A stretch of DNA of 64,000 bases. Source: Blastopirellula retiformator. GTDB taxonomy: Bacteria; Planctomycetota; Planctomycetia; Pirellulales; Pirellulaceae. A program made the translations under genes and the position numbers. Shown here piece after piece: positions 32,813-52,379 of the stretch (position 1 is its first letter; each line of letters starts with the position of its first letter). The DNA is taken from positions 515,729 through 579,728 of the forward strand of contig NZ_SJPF01000002.1 of the NCBI RefSeq assembly GCF_007859755.1. Reading direction: 5' to 3'. Below the pieces are notes generated by a model. It saw only the letters and a list, made by a program, of their open reading frames with translations, searched no databases and was not told the origin of the DNA.

Positions 32813-34123
32813 ATGCGTAACCTTCTACTAATACTATCGTTAACTCTCACCCTGCCCGTCCTGGCGAACGCCCAGCCGCCAAGCGGTTGGGGGGGACGCG
32901 GGGGCGAGCGAGGTGGTGACCGTGGCGGCGACCGGGGAGATCGGGGTGGTCGGGGTGGTCGGGACCGCGGTAGTGACGACCGCGGACGAGACCGTGGCGG
33001 CGATGACCGTCGCCGTAGCTTCGATCCGACTGAAATGCTCAAGCGGATGGACCGCAACGGCAACGGCAAGCTGGAAGATGACGAAGTCTCGGACCGAGCC
33101 CGTGGATTTCTCGATCGGATGAAAGAGAGTTCCGGCTATACCGCCAAAGGACCGCTCGACATCGAGAAGTTGACCGCCGCCATGAAGAAACAACGCGAAG
33201 GTGGCGTCCCGGGAACCATTCCTGGTTTTGGCGAAGATTCCGATCTCGAGTTGGCCCAAGGCTTTGACGCTCCTCCGCCGCTTGGCGATTTGGCCCTGGA
33301 AAACAAGTTTGACGCCAAAACGATCGAAAGCGTCAACAGCATGCTAGAGCGGTACGACAAAGACAAAAACGGTTTCCTCGACGATTACGAATGGTCGGGC
33401 GCGCGTTGGCGAACGCCGCCGGAAGGATCCGACCTGAACAAAGATGGCAAGCTTGATCGACTGGAGTTGGCGAAACGAGTCTCCGGTTTCTCGAACAATC
33501 GTCGTGGAAACGACGATGACAACGAGCGGGGCGATGATCGCCGCGGATCGGACGGCGACGACAGCGTCGCTAAAAACGCCAAATCGCTGATGTATCAGCA
33601 CGACAAAGACAAGAGCGGCTACCTCGAGAAAGAGGAATGGTTCAAAGATGACCTGGGCCGATATGACCGCAACAAAGATGGCAAGATCTCGACCTACGAA
33701 CTGGAGAAGCGAATCGAGAGTTTCGCCAGCCGCTCATCGTTCTCGAGCCGCGGCGATGGCGAGAAGGTCGACACCTATCGTTTCCTCAGCCCGCTGGAAC
33801 GTCTTCCCAAGGGTCTTCCCGACTGGTTCAACTCCAACGACTCGGACGAAGATGGCCAGATCCATATGAGCGAGTATTCCGCCGCCTGGTCAGATAGCAA
33901 GGCGGAAGAGTTCGCCCGGTATGATTTGAATGGCGACGGTTTTATTACGGCGAAAGAAGCGCTCGGCGCCGATGGCAAATCGATCGCGTCGACCGCCTCT
34001 TCTTCTAGTCGTTCCTCTTCGAGTTCGTCGTCTGGCGGGCCGCCGTCACGCGGAGGATTTGGCGGCCGGGGCGGTTTCGGCGGCGATCGTTCTCGCAGCT
34101 TCGGCGGCTTTGGTCGACGCTAA
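32813..34123 (+). CDS. secreted multi-EF-hand calcium-binding protein
   Basis: A 436-residue exported protein with signal peptide MRNLLLILSLTLTLPVLANA. A Gly/Arg/Asp-rich tract (RGGERGGDRGGDRGDRGG) follows. Seven EF-hand-type loops can be read: DRNGNGKLEDDE, DKDKNGFLDDYE, DLNKDGKLDRLE, DKDKSGYLEKEE, DRNKDGKISTYE, DSDEDGQIHMSE and DLNGDGFITAKE. Each has Asp at 1, 3 or 5 and Glu at 12. A Ser-rich stretch and a Gly/Arg/Phe tail close the protein. It should bind several calcium ions outside the cytoplasm. The five-hairpin repeat starts immediately after the stop. Confidence 0.88.
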   Translation: MRNLLLILSLTLTLPVLANAQPPSGWGGRGGERGGDRGGDRGDRGGRGGRDRGSDDRGRDRGGDDRRRSFDPTEMLKRMDRNGNGKLEDDEVSDRARGFLDRMKESSGYTAKGPLDIEKLTAAMKKQREGGVPGTIPGFGEDSDLELAQGFDAPPPLGDLALENKFDAKTIESVNSMLERYDKDKNGFLDDYEWSGARWRTPPEGSDLNKDGKLDRLELAKRVSGFSNNRRGNDDDNERGDDRRGSDGDDSVAKNAKSLMYQHDKDKSGYLEKEEWFKDDLGRYDRNKDGKISTYELEKRIESFASRSSFSSRGDGEKVDTYRFLSPLERLPKGLPDWFNSNDSDEDGQIHMSEYSAAWSDSKAEEFARYDLNGDGFITAKEALGADGKSIASTASSSSRSSSSSSSGGPPSRGGFGGRGGFGGDRSRSFGGFGRR

Positions 34124-34273
34124 CAGTCCGCTGATTTTCTCGACGGACTGCGTGATCGCACGGATGCGATCCCAAAATAGCGACGTAAGTCGTTATTTTG
34201 GGAGCCGCGAAGAGCTACGCTCTGAGCCTGGCGAGGTTGGAAAATGCCACGATGGCATTTTCCAACAGGCAGC
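34124..34273 (+). repeat. five-hairpin 3'-end repeat, copy 1
   Basis: The repeat begins on the base after the EF-hand gene's TAA. In order: stem 1 CAGTCCG...CGGACTG (34124-34150); stem 2 GATCGCA / TGCGATC (34154-34171); stem 3 AAAATAGCGAC / GTCGTTATTTT (34171-34202); stem 4 AGAGC / GCTCT (34211-34223); and stem 5 TTGGAAAATGCCA / TGGCATTTTCCAA (34237-34265). The conserved tail is CAGGCAGC. Copies at 39301-39450 and 50999-51098 are in the same orientation relative to their genes. Confidence 0.88.
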
Positions 34274-34307
34274 TAGGCCGCGACCGGACAACTTGCGATT
34301 TGTACAG

Positions 34308-34332
34308 AACCGCTTCTTCAGAAGCGGTTTTT
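34308..34332 (+). terminator. intrinsic terminator after repeat copy 1
   Basis: A nine-pair stem AACCGCTTC / GAAGCGGTT with loop TTCA is followed by a T-run. It lies 185 bases after the EF-hand stop, so the repeat is inside that gene's transcript. Confidence 0.82.
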
Positions 34333-39141: not shown

Positions 39142-39300
39142 CGCAGCGGAGTCCGCAAGAAAGTGAAGCTACCTTTAGAGCGTAACGCACCTTTTGCGTA
39201 GCTGCGAGAAGAAGTCTCGGCAACTGTTCGCCACGTCCGCCGCTCGAATATTGAGACGAAGCAGGCGCCATTTCGGTTTTCTGGATCGTGCAGCGGTATT
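39142..39300. other. spacer upstream of the LRR-like gene
   Basis: This 159-base segment, with the adjoining repeat copy, makes a 331-base gene-free stretch. It holds a small ACGCA / TGCGT hairpin near 39189-39200 and otherwise no recognised feature. It should carry the promoter of the gene starting at 39141. Confidence 0.4.
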
Positions 39301-39450
39301 GCTGCCTGTTGAAAAATGCCATCGTGGCATTTTCCAACCTCGCCAGGCTCAGAGCATAGCTCTTCGCGGCGCGCAAAATAACGACTTACGTCGCTATTTT
39401 GGGATCGCATCCATGCGATCACGCAGTCCGTTGAGAAAATCAACGGACTG
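39301..39450 (-). repeat. five-hairpin 3'-end repeat, copy 2
   Basis: Full-length minus-strand copy, 150 bases, starting 22 bases after the histidine-kinase stop. Stem 1 is a perfect 11-pair version (CAGTCCGTTGA / TCAACGGACTG). Stem 5 carries a G-U pair (TTGG.../...TCAA) where copy 1 has G-C and copy 3 has A-U. Between the kinase stop and this copy is CTAGAGCGGTTTTCTTCAAT, the tip of the palindromic element at 3915. Confidence 0.88.
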
Positions 39451-39472
39451 CTAAAGATTGAAGAAAACCGCT

Positions 39473-40978
39473 CTAGTGCCCTTTCGCCGCCTGCTTCGCC
39501 GATTCACCAACCGTTTCTTCTCCCACTTCCCCGTATTGATCCTCGGAGCGAAGATCGTGCAACGGCAACGTGATCCGAAAGGTGGCCCCTTCGCCGGGGG
39601 CGCTTTCGACTTTGATCTCGCCATTGTGGGAGTGAATCACAGCGGCGCAGATGCTGAGCCCCAGGCCGGTCCCTTGCGTCGGTTCTCCCGGCACGCGATG
39701 ACCATCGCCGCGGAAGAACCGTTCGAACACCTTGTCGTGCTCCTCTGTCGGGATGCCATAGCCGTTGTCGGCGATCGCCAATTCGACCGTTGACTGATCG
39801 GCCGAGCGGCGGAGCGTGACGTCAATGCCGCCACCTTCCGGCGTGAACTTGACCGCGTTGTCGAGCAGATTGTTGACCACCTGCCGCAGATGCTCGACGT
39901 TGCCTTTCACCCAGCTTGGCTGCAGTTTGGCATGCAAGGCAAGCCCGTTTTCTTCGGCCACTCCGCGAAACATCTCCACCGAGCGCTGCACCGCCTGGTC
40001 GAGCGAAATCGGATGCAGATGAATGAAGTGGCGATCCGATTCGGTTTCGGAAAGAAGCAGCAGCTGGTTGACGAGATTCTCGAGATGATCGTTCTCTTCG
40101 ATCAATTCGCCCAGCAGCTCTTGATAGTCCTCGACGCTGCGCGGTTCGTTCAGCGTCACTTCGATACTGCTGCGAATCGCGGCCAACGGGGTCCGCAGTT
40201 CGTGCGCCGCGTTGGCCAGCAAGTCTTGCTTACGCGAGACATGGACGGCGATTCGGTCGAGCAAACCATTGATCGTCGCGGCCAACTGATCCAGTTCGTC
40301 GCCGGTGCCGCGCCACGGCAGACGCTCTTCAAGATGACTGGGCCGCAATCGCGCCGAAGCGTGAATCATGTCCGATAACGGTTCGGTCGCCCGGCCGGCG
40401 AGCCAATAGCCGCACATCGGCGCCAGCAACAACACCAGGCCCGAAGCCCCCAGCACTTGTCGATCGACCCGCGCCAGATCGTCCCAGATCGACCGCAAGC
40501 TGGTTCCCAAGCGAACCGCAGCGATCCCTGCCGACGGTTTCTCTAGCCTGTGCTGGATGAACCGAATCGCGTCGACCTCGGTCGGCCGCGACTCGGCAAG
40601 CTTCTCGGGATAATCGATCGCTTCGTCGGGCGCCTTAGCGCTGGACCAGACGACCTTCCCCTCTTGATCCAGGAACGCCACAAACCAGCCGTGTTGGATA
40701 TGCCCTTCGGCATGCTGCTCGAGCGTCTGATACATGTCGGGCAGGTCGACGGGACGCTCCTCGAGCATCAACACGATTTGCCGCATGTCTTCCGCTAGCA
40801 GCTGATCAACTTCGTGGTAGAGGGCGAAGCGGACTCCTTCTCGCAGTCCCGCTAGCGTAGCGCCGGCGGCCAGGACCACGACGATTGCGTTCCAGACCAT
40901 CAACCGAAAGCGGAGCGTTTGCGACGCCGTTTTCAGCGATTTCCACCGTGCGCCGATCCAGTTTTCATCGGAATTCAT
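39473..40978 (-). CDS. membrane sensor histidine kinase
   Basis: A 501-residue two-helix sensor kinase. Membrane helices are at about 28-44 and 174-194, with a periplasmic sensor between (its family is not recognised). HAMP follows at about 195-247. The H-box is ANAAHELRTPLAAI (His259). The ATPase motifs are NLLDNAVKFTPEGGG (N), IADNGYGIP (G1) and GTGLGLSIC (G2). It is the natural partner of the OmpR-type regulator at 42585-43256, whose gene lies upstream on the same strand but is separated by the oppositely oriented porin gene. Its stop codon is supplied by the repeat tip CTCTAG. Confidence 0.93.
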   Translation of the reverse strand: MNSDENWIGARWKSLKTASQTLRFRLMVWNAIVVVLAAGATLAGLREGVRFALYHEVDQLLAEDMRQIVLMLEERPVDLPDMYQTLEQHAEGHIQHGWFVAFLDQEGKVVWSSAKAPDEAIDYPEKLAESRPTEVDAIRFIQHRLEKPSAGIAAVRLGTSLRSIWDDLARVDRQVLGASGLVLLLAPMCGYWLAGRATEPLSDMIHASARLRPSHLEERLPWRGTGDELDQLAATINGLLDRIAVHVSRKQDLLANAAHELRTPLAAIRSSIEVTLNEPRSVEDYQELLGELIEENDHLENLVNQLLLLSETESDRHFIHLHPISLDQAVQRSVEMFRGVAEENGLALHAKLQPSWVKGNVEHLRQVVNNLLDNAVKFTPEGGGIDVTLRRSADQSTVELAIADNGYGIPTEEHDKVFERFFRGDGHRVPGEPTQGTGLGLSICAAVIHSHNGEIKVESAPGEGATFRITLPLHDLRSEDQYGEVGEETVGESAKQAAKGH

Positions 40979-50796: not shown

Positions 50797-50998
50797 CTTT
50801 GCGCCGATGGAAATTCATTTGTCTCCGTTACTGGGACAAGTAAACGTCACATCCCTCTCCTGTTTGGTAGGTTCGCGACCGCATAGCCCTCGGCGTCCAT
50901 CTTCGTCTGCGTGACGATCTCCCAGACGGTCGTCCTAACGGCGAAAGCCAAGTCCCCAAAATACTGCGATGTCGCAACTATAAAGCGCCCCAAGACTA
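50797..50998. other. gene-poor spacer, possible gene remnant
   Basis: About 200 bases without a supported gene. A 62-codon minus-strand open frame crosses it and runs into repeat copy 3. Its product (for example QYFGDLAFAVRTTVWEIVTQ) has no recognised family and could be a degenerate gene end. Nothing else is seen. Confidence 0.3.
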
Positions 50999-51098
50999 GC
51001 AGCCTATTGAAAAATGCCATCGTGGCATTTTTCAACCTCGCCAGGCTCAGAGCGTAGCTCTTCGCGGCTCGCAGTCCGTTGAGAAAATCAACGGACTG
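50999..51098 (-). repeat. five-hairpin 3'-end repeat, copy 3 (short form)
   Basis: A 100-base version that lacks stems 2 and 3 by a clean deletion. Stem 1 (perfect 11 pairs) abuts the TAG stop of the DUF1552 gene. Stem 4 (AGAGC / GCTCT) and stem 5 (TTGAAAAATGCCA / TGGCATTTTTCAA) are intact, and stem 5 has A-U where copy 1 has G-C. Confidence 0.85.
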
Positions 51099-52379
51099 CT
51101 AACCCTGCTTTGCCGATAGCCCGGCGAGCGTTGTGCCGCCGCTGGCGAACTGGTCGACTTCGATCTGCAGGTGCTGCAGTTGGCTGACGAACAGGTTGCA
51201 CAGGGGGGGCGGATTTTTGGGGTCGAAGGCGAGATGCTGGCCATGCTGGAAGCGTCCGCCGGCGGCGATGATCGGCAGGTTCGAGTTGTCGTGGCTCGAC
51301 GCATTGCCGAGGTTCGACCCTAGCACGATCGACGTTTGATCGAGCAGCGTGACGTCTCCCTCTTGGACGTCGTCCAACTTCTGCAGCAATTCGGCGAACA
51401 GGCGCATCTCTTCCAGTTCGATGATCGCCAGCATCTTGATCTTCTCTTCGTCGCGTCCGTGGTGGCTGAGGTTGTGCCAGCCATCTTCGACGCCGTCGAG
51501 CGCGACGACGCCATTGTCGCCGGCGCCAGACAAGGTGATCAGCCGGGTCGAATCGGTCTGAAACGCGAGAAAGATCATATCGTACATCAACTGCATCCGG
51601 GCGGTCAGTTCCGACCGATCGGCGATATCCTCCGGCGGTTTGCGATCGACGACCGGCTTTGGCTTGTCGATCCAATCTTCGGCGTTCCGCAGACCTTGCT
51701 CCAAATCGCGAATGCTGCTCAGGTACTGGTCGAGGGTTTGACCATCCTGCTTTCCCAGATCGCGGGCCACGCTCTTGGTCTGATCCATGACCAGGTCCAT
51801 GATGCTTTGCCCGTTTTGCACGCGCTGCAGTTGGGTCGCCCGCTCGGCCGCGGTGCCGGCCAAGAAGAGCTTGGCGAACAACCGGGAGGGGCGACTTTCG
51901 CACGGGATCGAAACGCCGGCTCGCGTCCAGGACATGCTCGTCCCGTTCAGCCCCAAGGCAAGCGACGGAAAGCGGGTCGCCCGGCCGATAAACTCGGCGG
52001 CGTATTGATCGACCGAGATCGTGTTTTGAAAACCAGGGCGTCCCGGGTGCGCGGCGCCGGTCAAAAACGATTTCTCAGCGCTGTGCCCGCCGTTGACGTC
52101 AGGATGACTGAGCCCCGAGATGACGGTAAATTTGTCGCGAACCGCCTGCAGCGGCTCGAGGTAGGGGGACGGCTTGTAGTCGGCGCCTTCTCCTTCCGGA
52201 AAGAAATAGGGCCCGTAATAACCGAGGGGCGAGCAGATCGACAGCATCCGGCGAATGTCGCCGCGGGGCTGTTCCGGTTCGCTCGCTTTGGCTTTACCAA
52301 CGCCTAGGCTCGCCAGCAACGGCAGTCCAATGGCTACGCCGGAAGACTGCAAGAATCGTCTACGGTGGATCGCCTTCAT
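51099..52379 (-). CDS. DUF1552 family secreted protein
   Basis: A 426-residue DUF1552 protein typical of planctomycetes. ATG at 52379 starts a twin-arginine signal (HRRRFLQSSGVAIGLPLLASLG). The segments LGYYGPYFFPEGEGADY, VISGLSHPDVNGGHSAEKSFLTG, ISVDQYAAEFIG and MLAIIELEEMRLFAELLQKL, with SNLGNASSHDNSNLPIIAAGG near the end, match the family. The function is unknown; Tat export suggests folding or a cofactor in the cytoplasm. It lies 64 bases after the DUF1592 gene, its usual partner. Confidence 0.94.
   Translation of the reverse strand: MKAIHRRRFLQSSGVAIGLPLLASLGVGKAKASEPEQPRGDIRRMLSICSPLGYYGPYFFPEGEGADYKPSPYLEPLQAVRDKFTVISGLSHPDVNGGHSAEKSFLTGAAHPGRPGFQNTISVDQYAAEFIGRATRFPSLALGLNGTSMSWTRAGVSIPCESRPSRLFAKLFLAGTAAERATQLQRVQNGQSIMDLVMDQTKSVARDLGKQDGQTLDQYLSSIRDLEQGLRNAEDWIDKPKPVVDRKPPEDIADRSELTARMQLMYDMIFLAFQTDSTRLITLSGAGDNGVVALDGVEDGWHNLSHHGRDEEKIKMLAIIELEEMRLFAELLQKLDDVQEGDVTLLDQTSIVLGSNLGNASSHDNSNLPIIAAGGRFQHGQHLAFDPKNPPPLCNLFVSQLQHLQIEVDQFASGGTTLAGLSAKQG

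Follow-up and report, generated by a model that had tools for sequence, protein, structure and literature searches.

The five-hairpin repeat present in three copies in the window, i. e. the whole stretch of 64,000 nucleotides of the Blastopirellula retiformator genome analysed here, is very probably a MITE (non-autonomous DNA transposon) ~149 bp long, with an IS1182-like DDE transposase moving it in trans. Judged by its sequence, the repeat is a MITE: dispersed, short, non-coding and sharply bounded. It would be a new MITE of the IS1182 type with five conserved hairpins; MITEs themselves are already known. A preliminary description had named a mobile MITE-like origin, a conserved mRNA 3'-end structure and a protein-binding RNA as three options. 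Target duplications and inverted repeat ends speak for the first of these.

The repeat and its copies

The three copies with their five hairpins, reported in the preliminary description, were found again, with lengths of 149, 149 and 99 bp. The neighbouring genes, encoding an EF-hand protein (PF00036), a histidine kinase and a DUF1552 protein (PF07586), and the distances of 0, 22 and 0 bases to their stop codons are likewise as described, and so is the terminator behind copy 1. The features are as follows (positions in the window).

34120-34123, plus strand: left flank CTAA of copy 1, target site; its TAA (34121-34123) serves as stop codon to the EF-hand gene
34124-34272, plus strand: MITE copy 1, 149 bp, full length
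34124-34150, plus strand: hairpin 1 of copy 1, whose outer arm forms the left terminal repeat
34154-34171, plus strand: hairpin 2 of copy 1, as in the consensus fold
34173-34200, plus strand: hairpin 3 of copy 1
34204-34232, plus strand: hairpin 4 of copy 1
34236-34266, plus strand: hairpin 5 of copy 1; its apex holds an IS4-family IS in other copies
34273-34276, plus strand: right flank CTAG of copy 1, one mismatch to the left flank
34306-34331, plus strand: intrinsic-terminator-like site 3' of copy 1, outside the element
39298-39301, minus strand: right flank CAAT of copy 2 (minus strand); the duplicate is no longer there
39302-39450, minus strand: MITE copy 2, 149 bp, full length, starting 22 bp past the histidine kinase stop codon
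39451-39454, minus strand: left flank TTAG of copy 2 (minus strand)
50996-50999, minus strand: right flank CTAG of copy 3, one mismatch
51000-51098, minus strand: MITE copy 3, 99 bp, without hairpins 2 and 3, which were lost by a deletion between two TGCG words
51099-51102, minus strand: left flank TTAG of copy 3; its TAG (51099-51101) serves as stop codon to the DUF1552 gene

A search of the window with a covariance model (E up to 1e-8) found no fourth copy. With Rfam at its gathering thresholds no curated RNA family was found at the element, and the window gave only a tRNA. An exact 4-bp duplicate is absent in all three copies (CTAA/CTAG, TTAG/CAAT and TTAG/CTAG), and these imperfect flanks may be the reason why the target duplication was missed at first. 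At 39451-39476, across the stop codon of the kinase gene and the left flank of copy 2, lies a second short repeat, CTAGAGCGGTTTTCTTCAATCTTTAG or near-identical to it. Repeats of this kind have YTAR at both ends and adjoin further MITE copies (L095, L075, L042, L135).

In the 6.2-Mb genome the core AGCCTGGCGAGGTTG was matched 308 times with at most one mismatch, 155 times forward and 153 times reverse; the reversed core pattern, used as a control, had no match in the genome. Allowing up to three mismatches, 159 and 161 occurrences of the left end were found in the genome. The sample examined comprised the first 100 core places listed, with ~3 kb around each, and the window, i. e. 101 core copies. 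Both ends were present in 89 of the 101, and 78 of these 89 were exactly 149 bp long. In a larger set this length was found in 127 of 140 distinct copies. After one wrongly bounded copy had been dropped, the remaining 126 copies of 149 bp showed a mean identity of 97% to their consensus. Because of this high identity the spread of the element in the genome was probably fairly recent.

Shorter copies of 132, 115, 110, 99 and 98 bp were also found. The junction in copy 3 joins two TGCG words. In ten further shortened copies the joined words are TGCGA in four (4 of the 6 copies of 115 bp) and ACGGA in one (a copy of 132 bp), and five share 0-2 bases at the junction. As the junctions vary, the shortened copies are deletions of varied extent and not the result of modular loss. 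Thus copy 3 has indeed lost stems 2 and 3, as first described, but these stems do not form a removable module. Solo hairpins of 27 bp, corresponding to hairpin 1 or to a like hairpin made from both ends, stand at five places (L122, L127, L131, L133, L135) with YTAR-like flanks, one of them with an exact TTAA duplicate.

Marks of transposition are apparent at the borders of the element. An exact 4-bp duplication flanks 62 of the 89 two-ended copies; 19.4% would be expected from pairing the flanks of different copies. The duplicated words were CTAG (19), TTAG (18), CTAA (15), ATAG (5), GTAG (2), ATAA (1), TTAA (1) and CTGG (1). Since TTAG, CTAA, ATAG and GTAG are not palindromic, this is true duplication. 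The 27 copies without an exact duplicate include the three of the window. The terminal inverted repeats, CAGTCCGTTGA and CTGCCTGTTGA, are imperfect and match at 8 of 11 positions in the consensus. The element was not found behind the kinase orthologues of three congeneric genomes (79-83% identical), all of which end within two residues of the end of the B. retiformator protein, nor behind the DUF1552 orthologue of one congeneric genome (86% identical, same end). This comparison of four gene ends is one at the species level.

Stop codons and gene context

For the gene context, genes were called with our own codon-usage script, by which genes split by an insertion would be undercounted as 'inside' cases. 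A stop codon is hit precisely in 37 of the 89 two-ended copies. In 18 sense cases bases 2-4 of the left flank make up the stop codon of the same-strand gene, and in 20 antisense cases bases 1-3 of the right flank make up that of an opposite-strand gene; one copy belongs to both groups. YTAR contains TAA or TAG, so the stop codon is restored after insertion. A TAR in frame can only be the original stop codon; therefore these insertions leave the protein unchanged. As a whole, the 89 copies lie between convergent genes (30), between tandem genes (26 antisense, 20 sense), between divergent genes (11), in an undetermined context (1) and inside a gene (1). This single copy inside a called gene, a count lowered by the method, compares with 47% of the YTAR sites.

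Stop codons received 37 of 88 insertions, more than their share of 14.6% among non-genic YTAR sites as a whole. This excess, which had suggested special targeting of stop codons, was gone once only gene 3' flanks served as the control. There the number of insertions per YTAR site was 0.239 at the stop codon, 0.237 at 1-25 bp and 0.104 at 26-50 bp; farther downstream it was 0.25 at 51-100 bp, 0.147 at 101-200 bp and 0.074 at 201-400 bp. As the rate within 3' flanks has no peak at the stop codon, the availability of YTAR explains the adjacency. Target sequence and survival account for it, and an attraction to stop codons is superfluous.

All copies had been described as lying on the coding strand, which is true for the three of the window; the larger sample is even in orientation. 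No sense-strand bias relative to the flanking gene was found among the 89 copies. The reading as a gene-linked 3'-end RNA of the sense strand was not borne out, with ratios of sense to antisense of 18/20 at stop codons and 20/26 between tandem genes. Random orientation, which the preliminary description had itself named as evidence against this reading, is what the 18 sense and 20 antisense cases at stop codons show.

A likely course of events is the following. The transposase would recognise the observed ends of the type CAG[T/C]C[C/T]GTTGA and cut YTAR with a stagger of four bases, and repair would give rise to the duplications seen at the borders. An insertion on a stop codon would be silent for the gene, because YTAR carries a stop triplet on both strands and the duplicate can restore TAA or TAG in either orientation. 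Insertions inside genes would be purged, and the survivors would accumulate at and behind stop codons, where they were counted. A 4-base target with stop triplets on both strands would be a route to hundreds of copies in a compact genome. Covarying hairpins behind genes need not mean gene regulation.

The IS1182-like partner and other mobile DNA

The search for a partner covered 25 transposase loci (23 distinct places) of the families PF01609 and PF13751. B. retiformator itself has a remnant, a gene with DUF772 and DDE domains (PF05598, PF01609, PF13751); it terminates on the right in TTCAACGGGCTG, next to CTAG, and on the left it is truncated beside another IS, by our reading an IS3-like one. 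Besides the remnant, the genome (97% complete) yielded a small fragment but no intact partner, which weakens the case for current activity. A DDE_Tnp_1_6 gene of more distant relationship (C4:8834) was not bordered by matching ends of its own.

The protein of the remnant was matched in 28 of 147 relatives (own genome included), with many of the matches weak. Among 13 loci examined, 7, which come from 5 genomes, are ~1.4-1.5 kb long, with CAGCCCGTTGA as inverted ends and YTAR on either side. Their flanks include the non-palindromic pairs CTAA/CTAA (twice) and TTAG/TTAG (once). The top NCBIfam model of the partner is IS1182, with 195 bits in three relatives versus a cut-off of 270; by sequence, the transposase is thus IS1182-like, below the family cut-off. 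In comparison with the IS ends CAGCCCGTTGA, the left end of the MITE differs at 1 of 11 positions and the right end at 2 of 11, and in one relative (G125) the left end of the MITE is exactly CAGCCCGTTGA. Strong IS matches (E below 1e-20) were present in 5 of 14 genomes with the MITE versus 10 of 133 others (p 0.006; 147 relatives including the query genome, phylogeny ignored). At two loci (L174 2745, L194 2724) the reading frame of the IS1182-like transposase continues across the terminal repeat and ends at a stop codon supplied by the target duplicate on the right.

Other mobile DNA was met as well. An IS4-family IS (NF033592, 215 bits; ends ATACYGTTCGGCACGCC; spans 1547 or 1774 bp) sits inside several MITE copies, in the hairpin-5 apex TGCCACGA(G/T)GGCA, with a duplication of ~11-13 bp (L060 5291, L086 3954, L092 1435, also L064 and L162). 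Another copy (L154) lies in G-rich sequence. This IS may target such palindromes. In addition, the query genome (G000) has repeated copies of a RAYT-like unit of ~765 bp, with AAGGTGTCAGGACTC and its inverse at the borders and mostly 95-98% identity, e. g. at L107 5782-6543, 8807-9573 and 10478-11247 and at L111-L115. RAYTs are usually single-copy; the unit, being multicopy, thus looks like a mobile RAYT unit.

With regard to the enzyme, two alternatives were considered. A MITE moved by another DDE transposase would fit the presence of several further multicopy transposases and the absence of an intact IS1182-like copy. However, at the 25 loci (23 places) of the two families searched, paired inward ends were found in MITE copies only, three of them split by the IS4-family IS with its own ends. 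The remnant has one end; two further single ends adjoin IS elements of a different kind, in one case 49 bp beyond the stretch common to the copies of its IS. We therefore hold another DDE transposase to be improbable. REP/RAYT-type palindromes moved by the Y1 (HUH) transposases of the genome would agree with the 21 Y1_Tnp matches found there, partial ones included, and with the terminal hairpin. Yet insertion of single strands by HUH enzymes is not expected to give a 4-bp target duplication, and the ends of the multicopy RAYT units, AAGGTGTCAGGACTC and its inverse, are unrelated to those of the MITE; none of the nine units whose ends were inspected had MITE ends. In favour of REP/RAYT-type palindromes, the GTAG ends of REPs can likewise supply TAG stops, as stated in the relevant part of PMC3733652. 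Overall, this explanation seems extremely improbable.

Hairpins, covariation and known systems

The consensus of the element folds into five consecutive hairpins. When the 23 sequences of an alignment were folded singly, many kept all five, and in some (e. g. own copy 1, G002b, G001, G123) one or more hairpins were paired otherwise. RNAalifold on the alignment A2 left out hairpin 2, at a spot that is misaligned. DNA homologues, ~71-89% identical over most of the length, were found in 14 of 147 relatives, and covariance-model matches in 21 of 297 genomes of the class, from several families of the order (own genome included in both). YTAR stands on both sides in 6 of 18 model hits displayed from relatives, with identical words in 5 of the 6. 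Five of the six are from genomes outside the model (G279, G305, G113, G373). In the remaining 12 hits YTAR is missing from one side or both, and the ones from one family have, by our reading, four hairpins instead of five.

The alignment of 23 sequences, from eleven genomes, was made without structure, and pairs were counted afterwards for the named structure. In it, 89.0% of the cells pair, and double changes occur in 23 of 56 pairs. The cells with double changes numbered 83 versus 28.8 in shuffles, a signal that was abolished by sliding the partner; further pair types were not above the shuffles (55 versus 52.5). For 52 model-aligned sequences from 15 genomes, an alignment that leans to the structure, the numbers were 306 and 84. 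The stem covariation claimed from three copies is thus real, and far stronger than three copies could reveal. The change G-C/G-U/A-U in stem 5 is also real: the pair 117-139 varies among the 126 own full-length copies (G-T 79, A-T 35, G-C 11, T-T 1). In hairpin 4 (A2 columns 96-97/112-114) the own type has a tandem G-A/A-G mismatch, which resembles a tandem sheared G-A motif of RNA; G090, G125 and G109 have G-C and C-G there.

Common and rare variants of the own copies behave differently. Among the common stem variants, 7 of 8 keep or restore the pair. Rare one-sided changes of Watson-Crick stem pairs, i. e. variants in under five of the 126 copies, gave G-U 26 times, A-C 27 times and other mismatches 35 times, with 0.94 rare changes per site in stems versus 1.24 outside. 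As the rare changes are not biased to pairing, pairing is not visibly maintained after insertion. By the compensatory changes in diverged copies from other genera and families, the hairpins are constrained in the propagating lineage, and the resident copies show little constraint. The five hairpins are old, and they have probably been preserved by compensatory changes in lineages still transposing and not by a function of each copy. Their likeliest role would be in the propagation of the element itself or in its harmlessness.

By RNA energy, the top strand is the more stable one for 46 of the 52 aligned rows and 125 of the 126 own copies. Imperfect pair types present in at least two genomes were G-U in 16 and A-C in 1 case among the 23 rows, and those of one genome 9 and 19. 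Among the 52 rows, at least two genomes gave 21 versus 11 (p 0.11). Counted by copies, the 52 rows gave 25/12 with at least two copies (p 0.047), 16/3 with at least three (p 0.004) and 43/34 with no cut (p 0.36). These data hint that the top strand is folded in the propagating lineage, with a G-U lean that varies with the cut. A tentative and rather unlikely extension is that the folded top strand, as RNA or single-stranded DNA, is functional in the life of the transposon. The spread of the MITE would then need a strand-specific structured intermediate or transcript despite a DDE transposase.

Two further explanations concern the hairpins. A conserved RNA element of mRNA 3' ends, be it a stabiliser, a processing signal or a protein-binding site kept behind genes, would be in line with the strong covariation, the better folding of the top strand, the sense orientation of the three window copies and the somewhat lower number of rare changes in stems. 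MITE hairpins have been proposed to act on mRNA elsewhere, as a passage of PMC2229807 has it. However, the orientation to genes is even, the rare stem changes are spread over G-U, A-C and other mismatches as given above, and orthologous genes do without the element, which makes an mRNA element highly improbable. Covariation could also result from hairpin-templated repair instead of selection, which would be compatible with a MITE. Quasipalindrome correction is a known mutational process, and four double changes to new Watson-Crick pairs, each in a single one of the 126 own copies, would fit it. The imperfect pairs in at least three copies lean to G-U over A-C (16/3; 43/34 with no cut), which counts against it because the correction of double-stranded DNA should not yield such a lean. 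We consider it a serious rival for the covariation, albeit not the likelier source. For MITEs such as this one, a testable question is whether several hairpins are kept in the long term for transposition, for harmlessness or via hairpin-templated mutation.

The closest known systems share single traits with this MITE. In Methanosarcina acetivorans, a MITE of 160 bp related to ISMac2 is present in 14 copies and has an IS1182-family partner; it is listed with 26 and 4, which we read as inverted repeat and duplication, and a second one of 169 bp is listed with a duplication of 0 (PMC3852290). Like the element described here, the Methanosarcina MITE is small and non-autonomous with an IS1182-family partner, but it is archaeal, and the passages on it in PMC3852290 mention neither five hairpins nor stop codons nor covariation. 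ISPse1, a member of IS1182, has inverted repeats of 16 bp and, as here, a 4-bp duplication (from the relevant passage of PMC3281130); it is autonomous, whereas the relatives of our partner score below the NCBIfam cut-off for IS1182. The GTAG REPs with their RAYTs are likewise dispersed palindromes near genes with ends that can give a TAG stop, according to part of PMC3733652; their partner, however, is an HUH enzyme, and the RAYT units found here have unrelated ends. ERIC, NEMIS/Correia, RUP and the Caulobacter CIR resemble our element in their length of ~100-200 bp, their many copies and their strong stem-loops. As far as the passages of PMC2229807 describe them, ERIC, NEMIS and RUP form one end-to-end stem-loop and CIR two arms, whereas the MITE of B. 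retiformator has five hairpins in a row.
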